Shown here piece by piece: positions 44,938-62,200 of a stretch of 64,000 bases of DNA; position 1 is the first letter of the stretch; each line of letters begins with the position of its first letter. This DNA is from Owenia fusiformis. Taxonomy: Eukaryota; Annelida; Polychaeta; Sabellida; Oweniidae. Position numbers and translations under genes: made by a program. Below the pieces are notes generated by a model. It saw only the letters and a list, made by a program, of their open reading frames with translations. It was not told where the DNA came from and ran no database searches. The stretch covers positions 6,515,098 through 6,579,097 of the forward strand of contig CAIIXF020000001.1 in the NCBI GenBank assembly GCA_903813345.2, in the 5' to 3' direction.

Positions 44938-45513
44938 GGATGTCCTGAAAGAATGGGACCTTCCCCAAGTCAGAAATATACCAATGTCTCCATGTATGTG
45001 TCATATATCATTTTAAAGCTACATTGATTTGCCAAGTTTCATGGTTCAACTCACAAATCTGAAAAAGTATTCAGTTCTGACCTGAATTTACCTGAAAATA
45101 TGGGTGTTATCCTCAAAGGTAAGCAGTAAGATGGATATTGATTTGGAAAAGAGGATGGTGAGGGCAAAAACTCCAAGGAAACTCTTCTAACATTCTTTGA
45201 AAAGATTTTATAAGGAATCACAAAATGCCACACCCCTTTATTTGAGGTGATTTTAAGGGTATATCCAAATAAATTGCTGCTGTGAACATGGCCAAGGGGG
45301 TACACACGAACTATTAATTTGTTGTAGAACTGAACTTGGACAAACACTTAATTTTGAAATGCCTGTAACTTTTTCACATGTGTTGTTAGTTGACCTATGA
45401 TACTTGGCAAAACAATGTAACTTTGGATAAGCTTTAAAATGATATATAACATAATATAGAGACATTAGTATATGTCTGCCTAGGGGAATCCCATACTTTC
45501 TGGACACCCTGTA
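44934..45513. mobile_element. 580-bp mariner-type MITE with long terminal repeats
   Basis: The element runs from TACAGGATGTCCTGAAAG to the complement of TACAGGGTGTCCAGAAAG, with TA at both ends. Imperfect complementarity continues inward for about 150 bp (shared words such as ATATATCATTTTAAAGC and TTGCCAAGT). Only a short centre separates the arms and no transposase is visible. TACAGGGTGTCC ends are of Tc1/mariner type and match the element at 55890 at the tip only. Confidence 0.8.
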
Positions 45514-50200: not shown

Positions 50201-53200
50201 GTGTTGTTTATAGCAGTAGCAGATATTGTATGCTGGGGTTGTAAATAGTATGTACATGTACAACATTGACACTAATTTCCTTACCTCACGGGATATAATC
50301 CTCGCTGTTGGCACATCACATTCATCAGATAAAGCGACAAAATCTCCAAAAGACGACATCCTATCTGCTCCCCTTGCCCTTGCATATGCTATAGCTTGTG
50401 GGGTGAGGATCTCTAGCAGGTCATCCACCATACACAGCTTGGCCTGTTCTGTACTGAGGGGGAAGCCTACAGCAGCACCTGGCAGCACATAGAACACAAT
50501 GTTAAATATTCTTCCCTGGCCTTTCTCCTTTTCTATCAAGTTCTTTGGATCTTAAAGATGAATGTTTAGTGAGCGCAACAAATACAATACGAGTGTTGCT
50601 GTAACACTGTGAGTGATTCTAAAACACTACTGGTCAAGCATTGTTTGATAATAAGTGACCTACCTGCAGGGCTAACATGCTTGAATGATGTAGCAGCTGG
50701 TAATCCAAGAGCTTGCTTCAGTTCTCTAACAAGCTGCCAGCCATTCAGGGCATCACATAGATTGATGAACCCAGGTGACCCATTCAACACTGAAATGTTC
50801 ACAAACACATATAGAATCAATATAAATCCACACATGTATCTACAGAACGTCTTTCCCAGCTGTTTTAAAATCTCACTCCTGGTCCTTATCTCTCAAAGGA
50901 GCTTATTTACTGTCAGCAAGTTACTTTTATAACGCAGGAGCACACTTTCCTTGATGCTGTAGAAATACCTCATTTAGTAGTTCAAATATCAACTTTATAT
51001 GCTAAATGAACTATTTCAAGTTATACAGAATACATTACCTGTAACAGGGAGCTTGGGTTGGGTAGTGTAGAGCTGGGCAGGCTTCTGGTGTGGGTTCATG
51101 CCATACCTCAGAGGGAGCTGGGACACACCCTCACTGTATTCCCTTCTGAAGTAATCTGATATTGCTCCGTCATACTCAGCTGTGTGGTTGAATGCCTAGC
51201 AAAGAATCCATTGATGTACATGTAATTTGTAAGGCAAAACATTTACAGTATAATATTTCTTTGAGATAACTTGCATCTTTTTTCGGAGGAATCTAAATCC
51301 AAATAGCACTCTCTCAACAGACTTCACGCTAGACTCACAATAAAATGTTTTCTTTTAAAAACAGTTTCTCCTCAAATTGCATATTTTCTCTTGTTTGTTG
51401 TCCAAGATATGAAAAACAAAAATCAACACAACCATAATACAGGACAAGATTTCCATATGGATATTTCAAACAAATTTTCTTTAGATACCAGAGACGTTCT
51501 CTCTGGAATGCTGTGGATGACTTGATAAAACAATCTAATAACATATTGAATTTCAATAAATCATACAACATCAATTTCTCATAAAATATGAATGTTTGAA
51601 TTATTTACTGTAGCTCAAATACTTAGTATGAATCTCTCTTTCTTAGACCTATCACCACTTAAAATAATATATCATACAATTCTGTTGATCATTGAATCTT
51701 CACTTTTACTTGAACTGAATGAGTATGTCTACAGTACCTTAACTGCTAGTGTTTTCCTGGTGTCCACTGATGTATCTTTAGCATCAGAACTCTCCATCTC
51801 ATCACAAATGTTGTCGTAATCATTAGGGTCACAAACCACTGTAACTCTTGCATGATTCTTAGCAGCTGCTCTCAGTAATGTCACACCACCTTAAATTGAA
51901 TAAGTGTAGTGAGAACAGGTTTATTTAATGTTGCATTTAAAGGAGGGCATATTACCACATTACCTCTTCCATCCACCACTTTCGTTTTGTGCGAATTTTC
52001 ATTCATCAATTATCTAAATGCTACATATACATGTATGTACTATCAAAGTGCTGTTTTAGTTTCAATAAACACATTCTTTACATCCCTTTTATCTTGATGA
52101 ATAAAAAGTCATAATGTCTTTTAAAGTTTATTCTTTCATAAATAAAAGTATCAAATTTGGTTCACCCTGTTAAAAGTCCCTCCAGACACTTGCACTTTCT
52201 TACCAGTCCACAGTGAACAATTTTGACAAAGACATTTAAATAATGAAAAATGTATTTTATCAAAGAGCAATAATATAAAGGTAACAAGCCAATAACTTCT
52301 TAAAATTTCATATATGAAATTTGAATCTGTCCACTAGTATTTGAGTTATCAAAGTTTATATATCTACAGAAAATAGTAGCCAATTTGAATTGAGTGGCCA
52401 TATTGAAAATTTCTTCTCAAACAAAAGTCCTTTTTAATTGCTTATATGGCGTACTTTGCGAACTATTTTTCACCATGTTTTATAAATATTGAATAAAGTA
52501 GAATAAAAGTGAACATTTCTTACTGGAGTAAACTACTATTGGCGGTTAACCATTAACCATCGAGAGCCCAAATAAATCACCATTATCAAACTATAAAACC
52601 TGTTTTGTAACTTGAAGTTCTCAGAAGTTCTAAGGAGCGAGACAACAGCGAACGGATTGAATCATATTTTCCAGTTACCATGGATTCATTTCATAAATTG
52701 AGTCTTGAGGAAAAGGCTGATGCTCAGAAGCCAAAGAAGCCAATCAATGTTTTCAGTATTGATCTACAGAGTGTAGCTACTGGGAAAAAATGTAATGATA
52801 GATCACCAGCATACATCTGTGTAATTGGAGAAGATAACAGTACGATCTATGAAACATTCATCAAACCAGATCGCAGAGTTGTGTCATACACTGAACCCTA
52901 TACAGGAATAAAGTCTTCAGACCTAGATGATGCCCCAACAATGTCAGAAGTCACAGCAAAGCTCAAGGCATACTTTGGAAATCATCCAACCATAGTCGGG
53001 CAAGATAACAACTTTGGTCATACAATAGAGCTGATGACATCATTGGGATTTGAAAAGGAGAAAGATTACAAGTATATCGCCATATCTGAATGGTTCAAGT
53101 TGTACCAGGGAAGCAGAGGTGGTAAATATCCATATCTCTACTTCACTCTAGATGTACAACTGAGGGCCTTACTTAGTGAGTTTAATGTTCATCTCTTGTA

Positions 53201-56200
53201 CTTTAACCCTCAAAGGAAAGCTGGTCAATATATAAAAAATGAAAATGAAGACTCGGGACTGGAAATTCCATACTGGTAGTGAATCGCGAAAGTGAAAGAA
53301 TTACATTTTATCAAAGTAAAGATGGTCTGCCAGTGTTCTCCACAAAATTTTAAAGAGGGTGCAAAATTCTCATTTTGAAAATTCAGAAAAAATTGGGTTT
53401 AATATGCCAATTTGATTTTTCATTAGTGGGTGCAATTGGATTTTCAAGTTTGTGCAAGCCTGTGTTCAAAATCTCACATGGGTTATGATTAGGTGATACT
53501 GTTAGTGGCAAATCTATTAATTTAGCTTGTGAAAATAACATTATTGTATGGTTTAATGGTAAATGATTTTTTGAAAAAAATGAAATCTCTTCCATAGACT
53601 TCACGCAAATGGATATTAAGTAAAAACAAACAAGTCAAGCGACAGTAGCCACGAAACAAAGAAGTCCTTTCAGGGTCCCACTTTAATCCAAGATTCACAG
53701 TGTATCTCAATATTTAACTAATGATTTGATATAATATACAAAACATTTTTAAAATGAAACTGAAACTGAAAAATAATACTCCAATAATATTGTCACACTT
53801 TTCCATCAGAAAATGCCATTGGAGAATCTGCTCAAATATTATTGTACATTCAATTTTCAGACAAACCATTGAGCAGGGGTCTTGGTTCCAAAGGAAGGGC
53901 TTACATGAATCTTTACAATGCCTACAAAGATAAAGATGTCACCGATTTTGAAAGTGCCAAGCAGAAATGTTATTCTATGCGTGGATATCTGAGAAAAGGA
54001 CATAAGGAGGTTCCATTCTCTGAATTACATCCAACATACGAGGGTGTTTGTCAGGGGCGTATTCCACCAGGTCAGAGGACTGCCACATGTCCATGTGGGA
54101 CTCGAAAGTGGTAACAAATACAACAGCTGCTCAAGAGACATTTGAATAAGACATTAGATCAAACATAGTCAAACTTTGACAAACTTTATTGCAAAGTCCA
54201 ATTTAGAATTAGAAGCATTGAAAAAGGTGGACAACTTCTCCAGTCAACCAGACTGAAGTGATAATGCAATTGGTTTTACATTTACACCAGTCACTGAACG
54301 AAAATGCAACACCGATGAATACATCTCATTGAATACGCCTGGCATCACACAACAAGTAGAAATCAGCTTCAAGAATGTTATTTTGTAGAAAATTCAACGA
54401 AGAGGTGACACTCAGAAGATGGTAAACTTGTGATGAGTTTTATTTCATATATTGCACATAATGTATTTCCAAAAATAACTTGATATTGATCTATCTTAAT
54501 GCAATAAATGGCTTGCCAAAAATACCACTGTGTGTGATTTTTTACAAAATTAATTATGTGGGGTGAGAAAAACCCAGGACATGGGTTGGATGACAATGCG
54601 CAATGTTTCAAGAAATAAAGACATCAATATTTTGAACCAGTCAATAGAATTCCATTTTAAAGGTGTTCCATTTACAAAGGTTTACGTTACATTTAATAAA
54701 AAACAAGATCAGAATGTTGTCATTAATGAAGAAAATGGGACCAGTTTCTACATCCAAGTACTTACCAATATCTATCTGTTCCACTGCATCGTCCACCTTT
54801 ACATCTTTAGCTGAGATGGTCTTAACAAATGGGTACAAGTTGCAGGCCACTACTCTGATATACTGGTGCCCTTGCTTCTCCATGTCAGCCTTGTCTGAGT
54901 CAATCATCCTGGCTAGAATCCCTAAATGAACAATTTTGATCAATGAGATGACAGTTGATAGTAGATTTTAGATACTAATCTTGAACTAGCTTGATGATAC
55001 TCATTATTTTTATTTATATTCAGTAAGTAAAGCAACAGTATATTAAGTGATCTTCCAAGCATTCTACCATGTTACATATTCAATGAGGTCACTGAGAAAG
55101 CATTGCGCACGCAACAGACGTTTGAAATATCAGTGTGTTGCAGACACGCGAATAGAACAGACGTATCGCCTTTGGTGCGATATATACGGTTAGTGAATTA
55201 AAAGTTTTTCATTAAACCTTCACTTATTATTGATCAGTATTCTGTTGGGAAGCAAAAGAGTATAATTACAATTTTGTTATCTATGATGCTGATTATTTTC
55301 ATCATTTTGACACGGTCAATTTGATTTTTCATTTTCTTTGTTCTTCCTTTGTTTAAAAAGGCGGGAGAAACAGTCAATAAATATTGACTCACCCTTTAAT
55401 GCCTTCATGCATACGTTTTTCTACCACACTGCGTGGAATTAAAACGTCCTTTGACCATTCAACTGTTCAAAAACAGTTATTTATACGTGCTGTCGCATGA
55501 TTGTACAATTCTGAGTACAAAAACATACCACGTGCAATATCATTGACACGTTCAACTGCTCAATAGCAATCAGTTCATGCGTTCAGAGTTAGTGCATGTA
55601 TAAATCGTATGCAATCGAACATGTCACAAGCATTAAGGTCTAAACCTTCCTTTCAAGAAGATTTGGACAGTGGAACAAAGACAAAATCTTCAAAGAAGTC
55701 CAGCTCTGTAAAAGCTAAAAGTTCCGACAAGTCGGTCATTATGAAGTCGCCAAGCTTGACATCAGAAGCCACTGCCTCTTCAATGGGAAGTGAGCCTTGT
55801 AAATCCACGAACAATGAATCTGGTATCCCCGTGAGCTTTGTACAGGATATTACAAATGCTATTAGCACGGGATTGGGATGTATCAAAGATACAGGGTGTC
55901 CAAAAAAAAGCAGGACCGTAAGAAAGTTGAATAACTCAGTCAATTTTGCATATTTTGTCTTGAAATTTCAGAATTATTTAGTTCATTCGATGTGAATTTT
56001 GTTGTGAAAGTTTGACAATAATCTGCCAATTGAGTCAAAAATTATAGCTCCTTACAAAACATGCCCTAAATGTGCACCTCTCCTCTCTATGCACAATTTA
56101 ATCCTGCGATCAAAGTTGTTGATGATCCTCCTACACACATGTCTTTCTGAATGGACAAGTTTGTTTCAAGAACAATTGCTACTTAGGCTTACTTTCCTCC

Positions 56201-59200
56201 TGATGAAGTGTTACAGCATCCATTGCATTCTGAGCAATGCACTGCCTAGGTGGCAATGAGGAAACATGGAATCATCAGTCCTTTTTTGTTCGAGGGTGAC
56301 TGGGGACATGCTATCACCATGAACAAGGACCAGTTAGTTCTCACTTAGTTTTTTGGAGGTCACTAAGCACCAGAAGGGACATCTTAGGAGATAAGCAGTG
56401 GTTTCAACAAGCCAATACCACCCCAAAACTGCAAATGATATGCTGAAATGGTCTAGGCAATGATTTGGTGGTCAGCTCATCAGTTGCAGAACGCAAACCA
56501 TATGGGCAGCTCATTCCCCAGATCTAAATCCCCCAAATTTTTATCTTTGGGGATTTCTCAAGCCCAATGTGTATACAGACAGGCCCCTAACAATCTTAAG
56601 AGGGCAATAACTACCCCAATATTTACCATCCACATTGATATGTATAGGTCAGGGTCATTAACAACTTTCTTAGCAGGAATCGTTTGTGCATAGAGAGGAG
56701 AAGTGCCCACTTTGACCATGTTTTGTAAAGAACTGTAGTTTTTGACACAATGGACAGATTATCATGAAACTTTCAGAACAAAATTCACATTGAATGAACT
56801 AAATAATTTTAAAATTTCAAGGCAAAATATATAAAATTGACCGAATTATTCAACTTTCTTATGGTCCTGTTTTTTTTTGGACACCCTGTACTATGGTCGA
56901 AGCTTTAGGTGATATAAAGCAATCTTTGAAAACCGACTACCAAGCTGGTCAATATGATGATTATGGTGATATTCCTGATCAAGAGGATGAGGATCCTGAC
57001 ATCCTTGAACCACCTGCTAAAAAGCAGAAAACTTCCTCGTCCGAATCGACTGAAGTTTTTTCTTCCCTTATGAATAAACTTCGATCTAAGACCAAGTTAC
57101 AAGACGATAATGGACCTCCTTTATCTGAAGCTATGGCTGAAATCGTCACAGAACTAATCCAGGCGAAGCCAGAGGATGACGATATCGTATCTAAATTAGA
57201 TGGTCACAAGACGCCTGAAAACGTTCCATTATTGTGCACTACAAAGGTCAATGAACCTATTTGGACTCGGGTCTCAGCCGAAGTTCGCTCTAATGATATT
57301 AAATATCAAAAAGTGCAAACTCCCCTTGTGAAGGGTATAATTGCTTCTTCACGTGCATTGGAAGCACTGGATAATCTCAAAGAGACTCTTAGCAAAGAAT
57401 CCGATGCTTATGATGATGTGCTTACGACCATCGCGGAATTAGTGTACGAAAATATGCTATTCAGCAGTTATGCAAACTTGAAACTTAACATGCGTAGACG
57501 TGAACTTTTCAAAAATGAAATTAATCAAAGTTTCAAGCATTTGTGCGCCAAATCTGTGCCAATTACCCAGTTTCTCTTTGGAGACGACATCTCTAAACAG
57601 GTGAAAGAGATAGCAGAAATGAATAAAACGCAACTGCGAGGCGTTTTTCCGTCTTCCACTCGGGGTAATCGAGGAAGGGGACGTGGTTACGGTGGACGTG
57701 GTCGTGGAAACAATTCCAACAACCATTTTTTAGGCCAGGGCTACGGCAGAAACAACCACCAGCGGAACTCTACCCGATATCCCAACAAGAGAGGGAGAGG
57801 GGCCAAGAGCAAATCCAGCAATGCCAGCGAGAAAACCACCAATCAATAGGTCATGTTGACACTATTACAATAGACACTGCACCTGAAAAGGTAAGACAAA
57901 CACTTAAAAGCTCTGTCAATTATTTTCAAGGTGGTCGACTTAAAATGTTCTTGCATGAATGGGAACGTATAACATCAGATCAGTCTATATTAGATGCTAT
58001 CAGTGGTTACACGATTGAATTTTGTGATGATGATATTCAACGAATGCAATGGCCATGTAACACAAATTACTCAAGGTCAGATCATGAAAGCATGGATCTA
58101 GAAATTGCCAAATTTGCAAAAAAGGGTATCATTGTACCAATTGATGATTCTAAAAAAGGTCACGTGTCACCTATTTTCCTGCTACCCAAAAAAGACGGGT
58201 CAAAAAGAATGATTTTAAACTTATCTGATATAAATCAGAGTGTAGAATATCATCATTTCAAGATGGAAAATCTTCAACATGCCCTCAACATCGTGTCACC
58301 TAATATGTACATGAGTTGTGTCGACATTAAAGACGCTTACTATAGTGTGCCAATTCCTACTGATTCTCAAAGATTTCTGCAATTTGAATGGAAGGGCCAA
58401 CTATATCAATACACTTGTCTAGCTCAAGGGTTATCTTCGGCCCCCAGACTATATACTAAAATTATGAAACCTGTTTTTGCTAAATTGCGAAATGAAGGCC
58501 ATCTATCGGTAGCATATATTGACGATTGCTGTCTTTTTGCAGAAACCTCTGAGCAGTGTAAGCAGAACACCTATGACACAATCAATTTGCTCAGAACACT
58601 TGGCTTCATAGTTCATCCAGAAAAGGTTATCTTGACACCAACACAGGTAATAACTTTTCTTGGTTTCGAACTTAACAGTATCAATATGACTGTAAAACTT
58701 CCCTGTGATAAAGCACAAGTTGTGAAATCTATGTGTAAATCATTATTGTCTCGTAGCAACTGCACAATCAGGGATGTAGCACAAATCATTGGTAAATTAG
58801 TATCATCTCTACCAGGTGTTCAATATGGCCAGCTTCATTATAGAAATCTTGAAAGAAATAAAACAAAGGCTTTATCTATCAATGAAGGCAACTTTGATGC
58901 ATGCATGCAATTATCAAATGATGCAAAATCCGACCTACAATGGTGGATTAATAATGTAACGAAATCCTTTAAACCAATTTCTGTTACAGATCCAGGTATG
59001 TTGTTACGAACAGATAGCAGCACAAAAGGTTGGGGTGCAATATGTGTCACCAATTCTGTTAGAACAGGTGGACGTTGGTCAGCTGAAGAAGCTTCCAATC
59101 ATATCAATTATCTTGAATTGATGGCCATATATCTTGCATTGAAATGTTTTTGTAGAGAAAAATCACACATCCACGTACGTGTTGAAACGGATAACACTAC

Positions 59201-62200
59201 GGCTTTGGCTTACGTTAACAAAATGGGAGGTATCACATCGATTGCCTGTGATAACCTAGCAAAAGATATTTGGAAATTCTGCATTTTCAGAAATATCTGG
59301 CTTTCAGCAGCATTTATTCCAGGTTCTAAGAACACTGACGCTGATGAGGAATCTCGAGTATTCCATGATGAAACAGAGTGGATGCTCGACAAAGTAGTGT
59401 TCAATCAACTGATTAATCTGTCTGATTGGCCATCTCCCGTAATTGATATGTTCGCTTCAAGATTGAATCATCAGCTCCCACGTTATGTGTCCTGGAAACC
59501 TGATCCAGATGCTGAAAATATCGATGCATTGAATATAAAGTGGAATGATGAACCTTTGTATGTGTTTTGTCCTTTCAGTTTGATCACGAGAGTTCTAAAG
59601 AAAATCGAACACGATGCCATAACCAATGCTATCGTTATAGCACCAGTGTGGACAACACAGCCATGGTGGCCGAAACTTCTGAGACTCTTGATCGATATCC
59701 CAGTGATATTACCCAAAAGGAGAACGTTATTGTACCTACCGTACGACAAACAGAAACGCCATCCTCTTTGGAGAAAGATGACTTTGACTGCATGTCTTTT
59801 ATCCGGCGATCCATCGAAATCCAGGGAATTTCGAAAGACACTACCGAAGTCATCTTATTGTCTTGGCGATCTGCATCCAAAAAGCAATATGCTGTCTACT
59901 TACGTAAGTGGGTACACTTCTGTCATAGACGGGAAATTGATCCATTTCAATCATCTGTGAACATAGGACTCGATTTTCTCACGTCTCTTTATAAGGACGA
60001 TTTAAGCTACAGTGCTATTAATACGGCCAGGTCAGCGTTGTCATTCATTATATTACAAGACTCTGTTACTTTTGGAAATCACCCTTTGGTTTCTAGGTTT
60101 ATGAAGGGTGTGTTCAACGACAGACCTCCGTTACCAAAATATGAATCAACATGGGATGTATCAGTAGTGTTAAACTTTCTCGAGACATTTTATCCCAATG
60201 AACGTTTATCATTAAAGGAGCTGGCGTTAATTACAGGTCAACGTCGTCAAACGTTGCATACATTGACAGTCGAGAATTGCATCGAAGAACACTCAGGTTA
60301 TAAACTTATTATTTCACAGTGTTTAAAAACATCAAAATGTGGAAAACCATTACCAATTCTCACTTTACCAAGATATAGCAATGTGAAATTATGTGTATGT
60401 GCGGCTTTGAAAGACTATATTAATCGCACGGACACTCTAAGAGGTAACCAAAGTCAGCTACTCATTAGTTTTCAGAAACCATACGCAGCTGTATCTCTTG
60501 ACACCATCAGTAGGTGGATCAAGCTCACTATCAAAAATGCTGGAATTAATGTCGATATTTTTAAGTCTCATTCCACACGCTCTGCGTCTACTTCAGCAGC
60601 ACTAAATGCAGGTGTTGGGCTAGATGTTATTCTTAAGGCAGCAGGTTGGTCTTCCAGTAGTACATTCGCAAAGTTTTACAATAAACCTGTGCAGAAAGAT
60701 TCTGACATTTTTGGATTAAGTGTTCTTAAAACAACTGAATCAAAGTAGTTCATTTGGTTATTTTGAGAGAATAAAGCCAGAGAAGATTGGTATGATGTAT
60801 TATTATGATTTATTTGATATGTTATAAAATGTATTTAACTTTGTACTAGTTACTTCTTGTTTAAGTAATAAACAAAGATTATTTGTAATTACTTATTTGA
60901 CTAATCAATTTGATTACATCAAAAAAGGACGAGATCCACGTCCTTGCATCTTTTCATGACGGACCTAAATATTCATTCAAGTCCGTGTTTTGATCACACA
61001 ATGTGTCCATCTGTTGGCTTTAAACATCTCACGTGACCTCATTGAATATGTAACATGGTAGAATTTTAAGTTAAACGATCATTTTGTAAAAATGTGAAGT
61101 TTGACTGTAATTCTACCTGTTACATTGATTCAATGAGGTCAAGTGCCCTTCCCATGTGATTTCATGGCCCACCCTTTCCAGTGTGTTTGCTTGCAAAATG
61201 CATATTTATCATCATCTGGAGTAGAATATAAATATAATTTTGTATTCATCTGGACACATTAGTGGTTAAAGACTGATATTTCAAACGTCTGTTGCGTGCG
61301 CAATGCTTTCTCACTTGACCTCATTGAATCAATGTAACAGGTAGAATTACAGTCAAACTTCACATTTTTACAAAATGATCGTTTAACTTAAAATTAAATG
61401 TAACAATCTTTTGATTAGAAAAATAACCCTGTAAAAAAATTGAAATATTTTTTCCGATATAAGTAAAATTATGATATAGCACCTTGTTAAATATATTTAT
61501 ATATGTATAAGCAAAAATGTAATATGATGATTAAGTTACTATGTGGTATACATAATTTAGATATTAACAACCATACTTTACCTAGAGAAAATAGGGAGTG
61601 TAAGAAATGTAAAAACAATTCATTAGAAGATCTTAATCATTTTATTATGGGTTGTGATAATTATGTTGATATCAGAAAGATTATGATTGAAAATTTGATT
61701 AAGGAAAATCCTACATTTGAGAAACTTTCAAGTGAGGTTTTATATAACATTATTTTAGGCATGGAGTTTCCAATGAACAATTGGGATAATGTTTTGATTA
61801 TTTCATGTAAGAATGTCTCAATTATGTACCAAAGAAGATTTTTTGGCTGATTTACCAAATGTACCCATTGTTATTTTGGGTTTAAATTTTGCTCATGTAT
61901 ACGACTCATGTATAATTCATGATATTGTAATTGTTTAATTAGCATAAGGTATAGTGTAAGATTGTTCTAATTGTCAAACTATTCTTCAGTATTGGAGGCT
62001 AAATAAATAAATAGAATATAGAAATATTTTAAGCAATACAACATGTTTTCCAACATGCAGAAAGCCATAATAATGTGCTGGTGTTACAATTGTGTAACAC
62101 AAAAACACTGAACAAAGATTTCCACCTATTCTGGGTTTACATTATTATTACCTACCACCATGTACAGCTGGGTGAAGGGTCTTCACTCTTCCCCCAAGCA

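Follow-up and report, generated by a model that had tools for sequence, protein, structure and literature searches.

The closest described relatives of the retroelement treated here are the DIRS1-like elements of molluscs (AcaDIRS1, AcaDIRS2, LgDIRS1 and LgDIRS3; Table 3 of PMC3266345), among which AcaDIRS1, as tabulated there, has ATT at both ends, the circular junction AAT and a right extension of 48 bp; parts of PMC3072357 and PMC2872659 served as general background. For the DNA transposon nested within our element, described counterparts are found in the rosa and DD41D literature, where the part of PMC5490172 drawn on here lists rosa-type miniature inverted-repeat transposable elements (MITEs), ascribes MITE lineages to internal deletion, and gives LTIR elements of the DD40/41D type in aphids with terminal inverted repeats (TIRs) of ~460 bp. 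Another counterpart is the mariner Mos1, which when equipped with two right ends had 26 times the activity of the natural left-right pair in vitro, while Mboumar-9 favours its left end, so that a preference for the right end is not general (both from the cited section of PMC4505599). We analysed a 64,000-nt stretch of the Owenia fusiformis genome, hereafter the window (C1:6515098-6579097 of the 498-Mb assembly), in which a DIRS1-like retroelement copy (55061-61395, plus strand) contains, within its first open reading frame (ORF1), a 997-bp non-autonomous Tc1/mariner derivative. We are highly confident that this is a nested insertion, in which a decayed, non-autonomous mariner was pasted late, and in trans, into ORF1 of one young DIRS copy; empty sites, a TA duplication, near-identical mariner copies elsewhere and shared stop codons were all observed directly.

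The mariner derivative (CAGGGTGTCC...GGACACCCTG; 55892-56888, plus strand) lies between the left (55890-55891) and right (56889-56890) copies of a TA target-site duplication and splits ORF1 into a 5' part, putatively Gag by its position (55609-55891, plus strand, from the first in-frame ATG, read by eye, up to the break), and a 3' part (56891-57849, plus strand). When the empty ORF1 site was searched in the assembly with up to 3 mismatches allowed, there were 6 matches, all of them exact and one in each of the other full-length DIRS copies, and all six sites held a single TA with no footprint seen. The filled right junction was matched exactly only in the window, its other 48 matches having 1-2 mismatches and lying outside the six DIRS copies. 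The filled left junction was little informative, as it had 1739 matches at ≤2 mismatches; among the 100 of these that were listed, eight were exact, namely the window and seven places outside the six DIRS copies. Two mariner copies elsewhere are very close to that of the window, L008 (C12:29812197) differing at 2 of 997 sites and L009 (C6:22488088) by 1.3%, and in their ~300-bp flanks we saw no similarity to the window DIRS element.

A wider comparison was based on the best 40 of 686 candidates, which comprised the window mariner, 36 other full-length copies and 3 partial ones that were excluded, and so gives a lower bound on the size of the family. Each copy's median distance to the rest ranged from 2.7 to 7.2% over the 37 aligned copies, 30 of which fell within 2.7–4.3%; L036, L043, L044 and L045 were at 5.8–7.1%, and the window mariner, L008 and L009 formed a close trio ~6–9% from the remaining copies. 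TA was present on both sides of 32 of the 36 other copies (with one end extrapolated in L040 and L045), and the flanking pair was absent as read in L013, L014, L042 and L043. With its TA target and CAGGGTG-type inverted tips the family belongs to Tc1/mariner, and its many copies at separate TA sites with shared lesions are those of a non-autonomous element mobilised in trans. We compared 20 stop codons in the three frames of 56200-56620, skipping codons split by gaps, and found 15 of them to be common to at least 34 of the 36 other full-length copies, the remaining 5 occurring in only 2-3. One stop that we considered as a family-wide lesion, the TGA at 56461, was rejected, being present in 3 of the 37 aligned copies, and in the copies read the TGA of most others is a different codon. 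A broader search, made with a 61-residue piece (best 150 of 1351 candidates), gave at least one stop, read by eye, in 140 of the 150 places, the affected codon varying. Arm-to-arm identity was 83–92% in all 37 copies, a gap wider than the median distance between copies. Coding ability was therefore lost before the mariner family spread, and most of the decay precedes that spread. Since both the decay and the divergence of the arms are family-wide, the old appearance of the window mariner was inherited and did not accumulate inside the DIRS element; that the mariner is older than the DIRS copy is rejected for this insertion, and age holds only for the decay of the family. The locus is thus a clean example of a nested element that seems older than its host because its lesions are those of the family and not of the copy.

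The initial annotation had offered two histories for this arrangement, and the observations above separate them. In one, an ancestral DIRS element acquired the mariner long ago and, as a composite, went on replicating with Gag supplied in trans; the open frames of ORF2 and ORF3 and the perfect matches between the termini and the internal complementary region (ICR) of the window copy would suit such a history. We consider it almost certainly wrong, as a replicating composite should show the mariner at the same site in more than one DIRS copy and 0 of the six other full-length copies found in this assembly has it. The six sites are clean and footprint-free, the filled right junction is unique to the window, a mariner copy that differs by 0.2% has ~300-bp flanks with no match to the window DIRS element, and most of its decay is common to the whole mariner family; the composite lineage was rejected on these grounds. 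The check proposed in the annotation, a search for the mariner at the same position in other DIRS copies, thus came back empty, and near-identical, equally decayed mariners do occur elsewhere, the pair of results it had named as telling against the composite. The other history, the late arrival of an already decayed mariner by means of a foreign transposase, is supported. A shorter version of the composite, in which the mariner first entered a different DIRS copy and a single retrotransposition brought the pair to this position, the parent being lost or outside the assembly, is compatible with the divergences (2/997 for the mariner against L008, 17/5328 for the DIRS element against its nearest copy). 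We nevertheless judge it very unlikely, since it calls for one more copy that has not been seen, which would have had to replicate with its ORF1 disrupted although only seven copies of the family were found, where a single direct insertion is enough.

The late-insertion reading runs as follows. The DIRS1-like element integrated in an apparent intron of ATIC (PURH), through its own tyrosine recombinase. Elsewhere, an inverted copy of a transposon 3' end probably replaced the 5' half of a transposon to give the derivative, a step supported by the anatomy described below and for which we infer the mechanism, and by the time its family spread the derivative was no longer able to code. A DD41D-like transposase acting in trans would then have excised a derivative elsewhere and pasted it at a TA in ORF1, following the integration of this DIRS copy. 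The small divergences of the mariner from L008 and of the DIRS element from the C8 copy indicate that both movements are of similar recency. By analogy with Mos1 (the cited section of PMC4505599), two like ends may favour the spread of such elements.

Several points weigh against this reading. The divergences are too small for dating alone to order the DIRS integration and the mariner insertion, and all copy counts are lower bounds from one assembly. The transposase that would have moved the mariner was not found, and no partner could be named, among 27 loci read (12 reached via DDE_3, 8 via the L053 protein and 7 via the L059 protein). What the intact relatives have in common with the window mariner is the CAGGGTG tips and, at best, 54% identity in one protein block; a tip of L061 (CAGGGTGTCCC) comes nearer that of the window mariner, but the retrieved piece showed no second one. 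The missing partner bears on the claim of a partner and not on mobility. The nearest intact relative among the 27 loci is L059, a 1394-bp element in three near-identical copies with CAGGGTG tips flanked by TA and an intact transposase of 366 aa, in which the second and third D are separated by 41 residues; the window remnant is broken at that region. Pieces of the remnant gave 0 matches in Pfam, and against the PDB there was a single weak match, to Sleeping Beauty (E 0.43).

Our comparison with L059 showed the mariner derivative to have an unusual anatomy, in which both of its arms resemble the 3' end of a transposon. The left arm (55892-56163, minus strand) looks like an inverted copy of a 3' end, its minus strand reading a transposase C-terminus (...HVL-stop) with 40% identity to residues 325-366 of L059 (E 8e-5), and the right arm (56617-56888, plus strand) has C-terminal transposase codons up to a stop ending at 56728, the remaining 160 bp being 3' end; the distance from the end of the stop codon to the terminus is the same, 160 bp, in the two arms. 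Between them lies an eroded transposase remnant (56199-56592, plus strand) corresponding to residues 188-235 and 264-320 of L059 (best block 54% identity, E 4e-24), and the N-terminal half of the L059 transposase has no match in the window mariner. The arms are ~270 bp each and 81–84% complementary, confirming the earlier description of a mariner-type element with diverged arms and a broken transposase inside ORF1. Arms trimmed of their outer 32 bp were compared with 100 shuffles. With the 3' ends of L070 and L071, plain internal deletions with TIRs of 29-30 bp, both arms scored above every shuffle, and with the 5' ends of these two they did not; both were colinear with the L071 3' end over ~250 bp and also exceeded all shuffles against the L059 3' end. 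On this sequence evidence the window mariner seems to be a double-3'-end derivative that has lost its N-terminal half.

The results with the 5' end of L059 speak against such a simple origin, as both arms exceeded all 100 shuffles there too (30.5 and 24.0; best shuffles 17.5 and 17.0) and the left arm was slightly nearer the L059 5' end than its 3' end (27.0). Given this likeness of the L059 5' end to the two arms, the left arm may be of mixed or older origin. The two ends of L059 itself have no clear likeness (13/200 shuffles as good), those of L071 have a slight one (0/200), and with L053 neither arm was above shuffles at the 3' end and the right arm was barely so at the 5' end (21.0, best shuffle 20.5). 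These likenesses to a 5' end, together with the ~460-bp TIRs of LTIR elements in the part of PMC5490172 cited above, would fit arms of a plainer kind, either the long TIRs normal for an LTIR-type DD40/41D transposon or a mixture of sequence from the 5' and 3' ends; we think this unlikely, as both arms encode the transposase C-terminus and the L070 and L071 3' ends, but not their 5' ends, beat shuffles with both arms. The intact relative L059 resembles rosa and DD41D elements in its 41-residue spacing and in its CAGGGTG tips, to which the aphid rosa tip AAGGGTGTCTCAAAAAG is similar (as given in part of PMC5490172). Unlike the rosa MITEs, the window mariner lacks the N-terminal half and has C-terminal codons in both of its ~270-bp arms. 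It shares with engineered Mos1 a cargo between two copies of one end, and differs in that it is natural, has far longer arms, belongs to another transposase family and is known here from sequence alone.

A second non-autonomous, DD41D-like family shows the same plan. L066-L069 have inverted arms of 179–197 bp that are 85–91% alike and enclose transposase residues 163-331, 163-344 or 163-366, without the N-terminal half, and in L069 both arms read the C-terminal motif HLEHIL followed a few residues on by a stop. The L069 arms exceeded all 200 shuffles against the L059 3' end, whereas against the 5' end 31 and 96 of 200 shuffles were as good. The arms of L066-L069 gave no blastn match to those of the window family at E 1e-5; in local alignments between the two only 0–2 of 200 shuffles were as good, as expected of homologous 3' ends. 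Judging from these arms, L066-L069 likely arose independently of the window family. We put forward as a tentative and still doubtful suggestion that DD41D-type transposons in this genome repeatedly yielded double-3'-end derivatives, of which two or more families are seen whose arms clearly differ (the window family and L066-L069), and that these spread widely since the transposase prefers two right ends, so that they would parallel in nature the hyperactive Mos1 engineered with two right repeats. While the nested insertion itself is ordinary, this architecture is the part worth keeping, as two putative double-right-end families would make the in vitro finding that the natural end pair of a mariner is not the most efficient testable in a natural genome. 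The protein search with L059 also listed many places resembling L066-L069.

The DIRS element that received the mariner has ATT...ATT ends and no target-site duplication. Its left inverted terminal repeat (ITR; 55061-55134, plus strand) consists of a divergent part (55061-55092) and a conserved part (55093-55134), and the right ITR with the right extension (61272-61395, plus strand) of a conserved part (61272-61313) and an extension of ~48 bp (61348-61395). In the ICR (61033-61145, minus strand), 61033-61064 pairs with the left end and 61062-61145 with the right end, the halves sharing a 3-bp core (61062-61064). We found these features where the initial annotation had placed them, with exact inverted matches of 32/32, 42/42 and 84/84 nt, well above chance, among the termini, ITRs and ICR; the 84-nt right end of the window copy also matched, at 100%, the ICR of every one of the six other copies that are full-length. 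ORF2 (open frame 57669-59960, plus strand) encodes a reverse transcriptase with a YIDD motif (PF00078, 4.5e-21), and ORF3 (open frame 59552-60748, plus strand) a tyrosine recombinase with HSTR (PF00589, 1.8e-10). For RNase H and methyltransferase, Pfam at E<0.01 gave only RVT_1 in ORF2, no dedicated model having been applied, and the two parts of ORF1 had 0 Pfam matches. With its ITRs, an ICR that pairs with both ends and has a 3-bp junction, a reverse transcriptase and a tyrosine recombinase, the element is DIRS1-like. The ATT ends without target-site duplication were seen in the window copy and in five others (the left end of L005 being ATTTTACC), and the two ends of the C8 copy were read separately.

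Measured against Table 3 of PMC3266345, the element shares with its molluscan relatives the ATT...ATT ends, the AAT circular junction and the YIDD and HSTR motifs. In the same table the right extension is 48–49 bp (~48 here), the conserved ITR 31–36 bp (42 here), the right ICR 86–88 (84 here), the left ICR 39–45 (32 in the window copy, 38–39 in other copies) and the length 4.7–5.8 kb (~5.4 kb in the other copies here, large inserts not counted). The window copy further differs from the molluscan elements by the mariner inside its ORF1 and the 24 nt missing from ORF3, and perhaps by the overlap between its open ORF2 and ORF3 frames, which is up to ~400 bp here, the table giving no long ORF overlap in molluscs.

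The other DIRS copies were found with a DNA query from the 3' end, the best 40 of 59 candidates being scored, so that their number is a lower bound. At least six are full-length: L001 (C1:44.29M), L002 (C10), L003 (C4), L004 (C3:22.0M), L005 (C3:9.78M) and the C8 copy (L006+L007). More distant relatives among the scored candidates were ~72–94% identical in the ends, and in L011 (C12) the similarity was confined to the left end. Summed over five pieces, differences from the window were 17/5328 (C8), 32/5333 (C10), 35/5331 (C3:22.0M), 50/5304 (C1:44M), 111/5330 (C4) and 123/5326 (C3:9.78M), the nearest full-length copy found thus being that on C8. The window copy has private substitutions at 7 of 4154 comparable sites, a count made without the ORF1 piece, in which L006 and L007 share only 5 columns. 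With seven full-length copies found, the DIRS family is small and young.

Each of the seven copies has at least one ORF lesion or insertion as read from the alignments, and the window copy, young as it is, has already begun to decay. The annotation had called its ORF2 and ORF3 undamaged, and both are indeed open, but ORF3 is 24 nt short at 60220/60221, near the start of the recombinase-domain match; those 24 nt are complete in five of the six other copies (two with one base changed) and partial in L001. At 60217-60221, L001 falls 13 nt short of the remaining five copies and the window copy lacks the 24 nt, which makes two distinct deletions at one spot. The left terminus lacks one base at 55092/55093 that is present in all six other copies, and this is why the match between terminus and ICR is only 32 nt in the window copy; the window ICR is exact over 38–39 nt against the left termini of L001, L002, L003 and L007, and makes longer, imperfect alignments with those of L004 and L005. 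The 5' leader lacks 3 nt and 16 nt that are present in all six other copies. It was reasonable to take the perfect match between ICR and termini as a sign of recent replication, but these losses in the left terminus, leader and ORF3 qualify it. Nested insertions of three different sizes occur in three of the seven copies. The C8 copy has an unrelated 5.3-kb insert inside ORF1 with a 1251-codon frame, which by its frames we take to be like a long interspersed nuclear element, and the C4 copy has an unrelated 481-bp insert with an apparent 5-bp duplication. Imperfect direct repeats (88%) lie close to one end of the C8 insert. At positions 416-700 of L010 (C4:3092715-3092999) there is a ~284-bp mini-element composed solely of DIRS terminal parts, which begins at the ICR core and finishes at the left terminus (reverse complement), so that both of its ends are near the recombination core; it is possibly a by-product of circle formation or of template switching.

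As to the genomic setting, the DIRS element appears, from similarity searches, to lie antisense in one of the introns of ATIC (PURH), a host gene. A minus-strand exon at ~54.77-54.92 kb resembles PURH chains of known structure, among them 1g8m and 1p4r (PDB search, E ~1e-12), and a more C-terminal PURH piece is found at 50.1-50.6 kb (PF01808, 7.9e-8). Peptides on the minus strand of 61.4-64 kb are presumably those of the PURH N-terminus. An Rfam scan of 54500-62000 gave 0 matches at gathering scores. On the opposite strand of the ATIC locus, a 222-aa open frame (52611-53279, plus strand) has a weak match, falling under the cut-off, to the RNase_T exonuclease family (E 0.0015). An additional CACCCTGTA terminus was seen at 45505 of the window, possibly belonging to another element of the CAGGGTG group.

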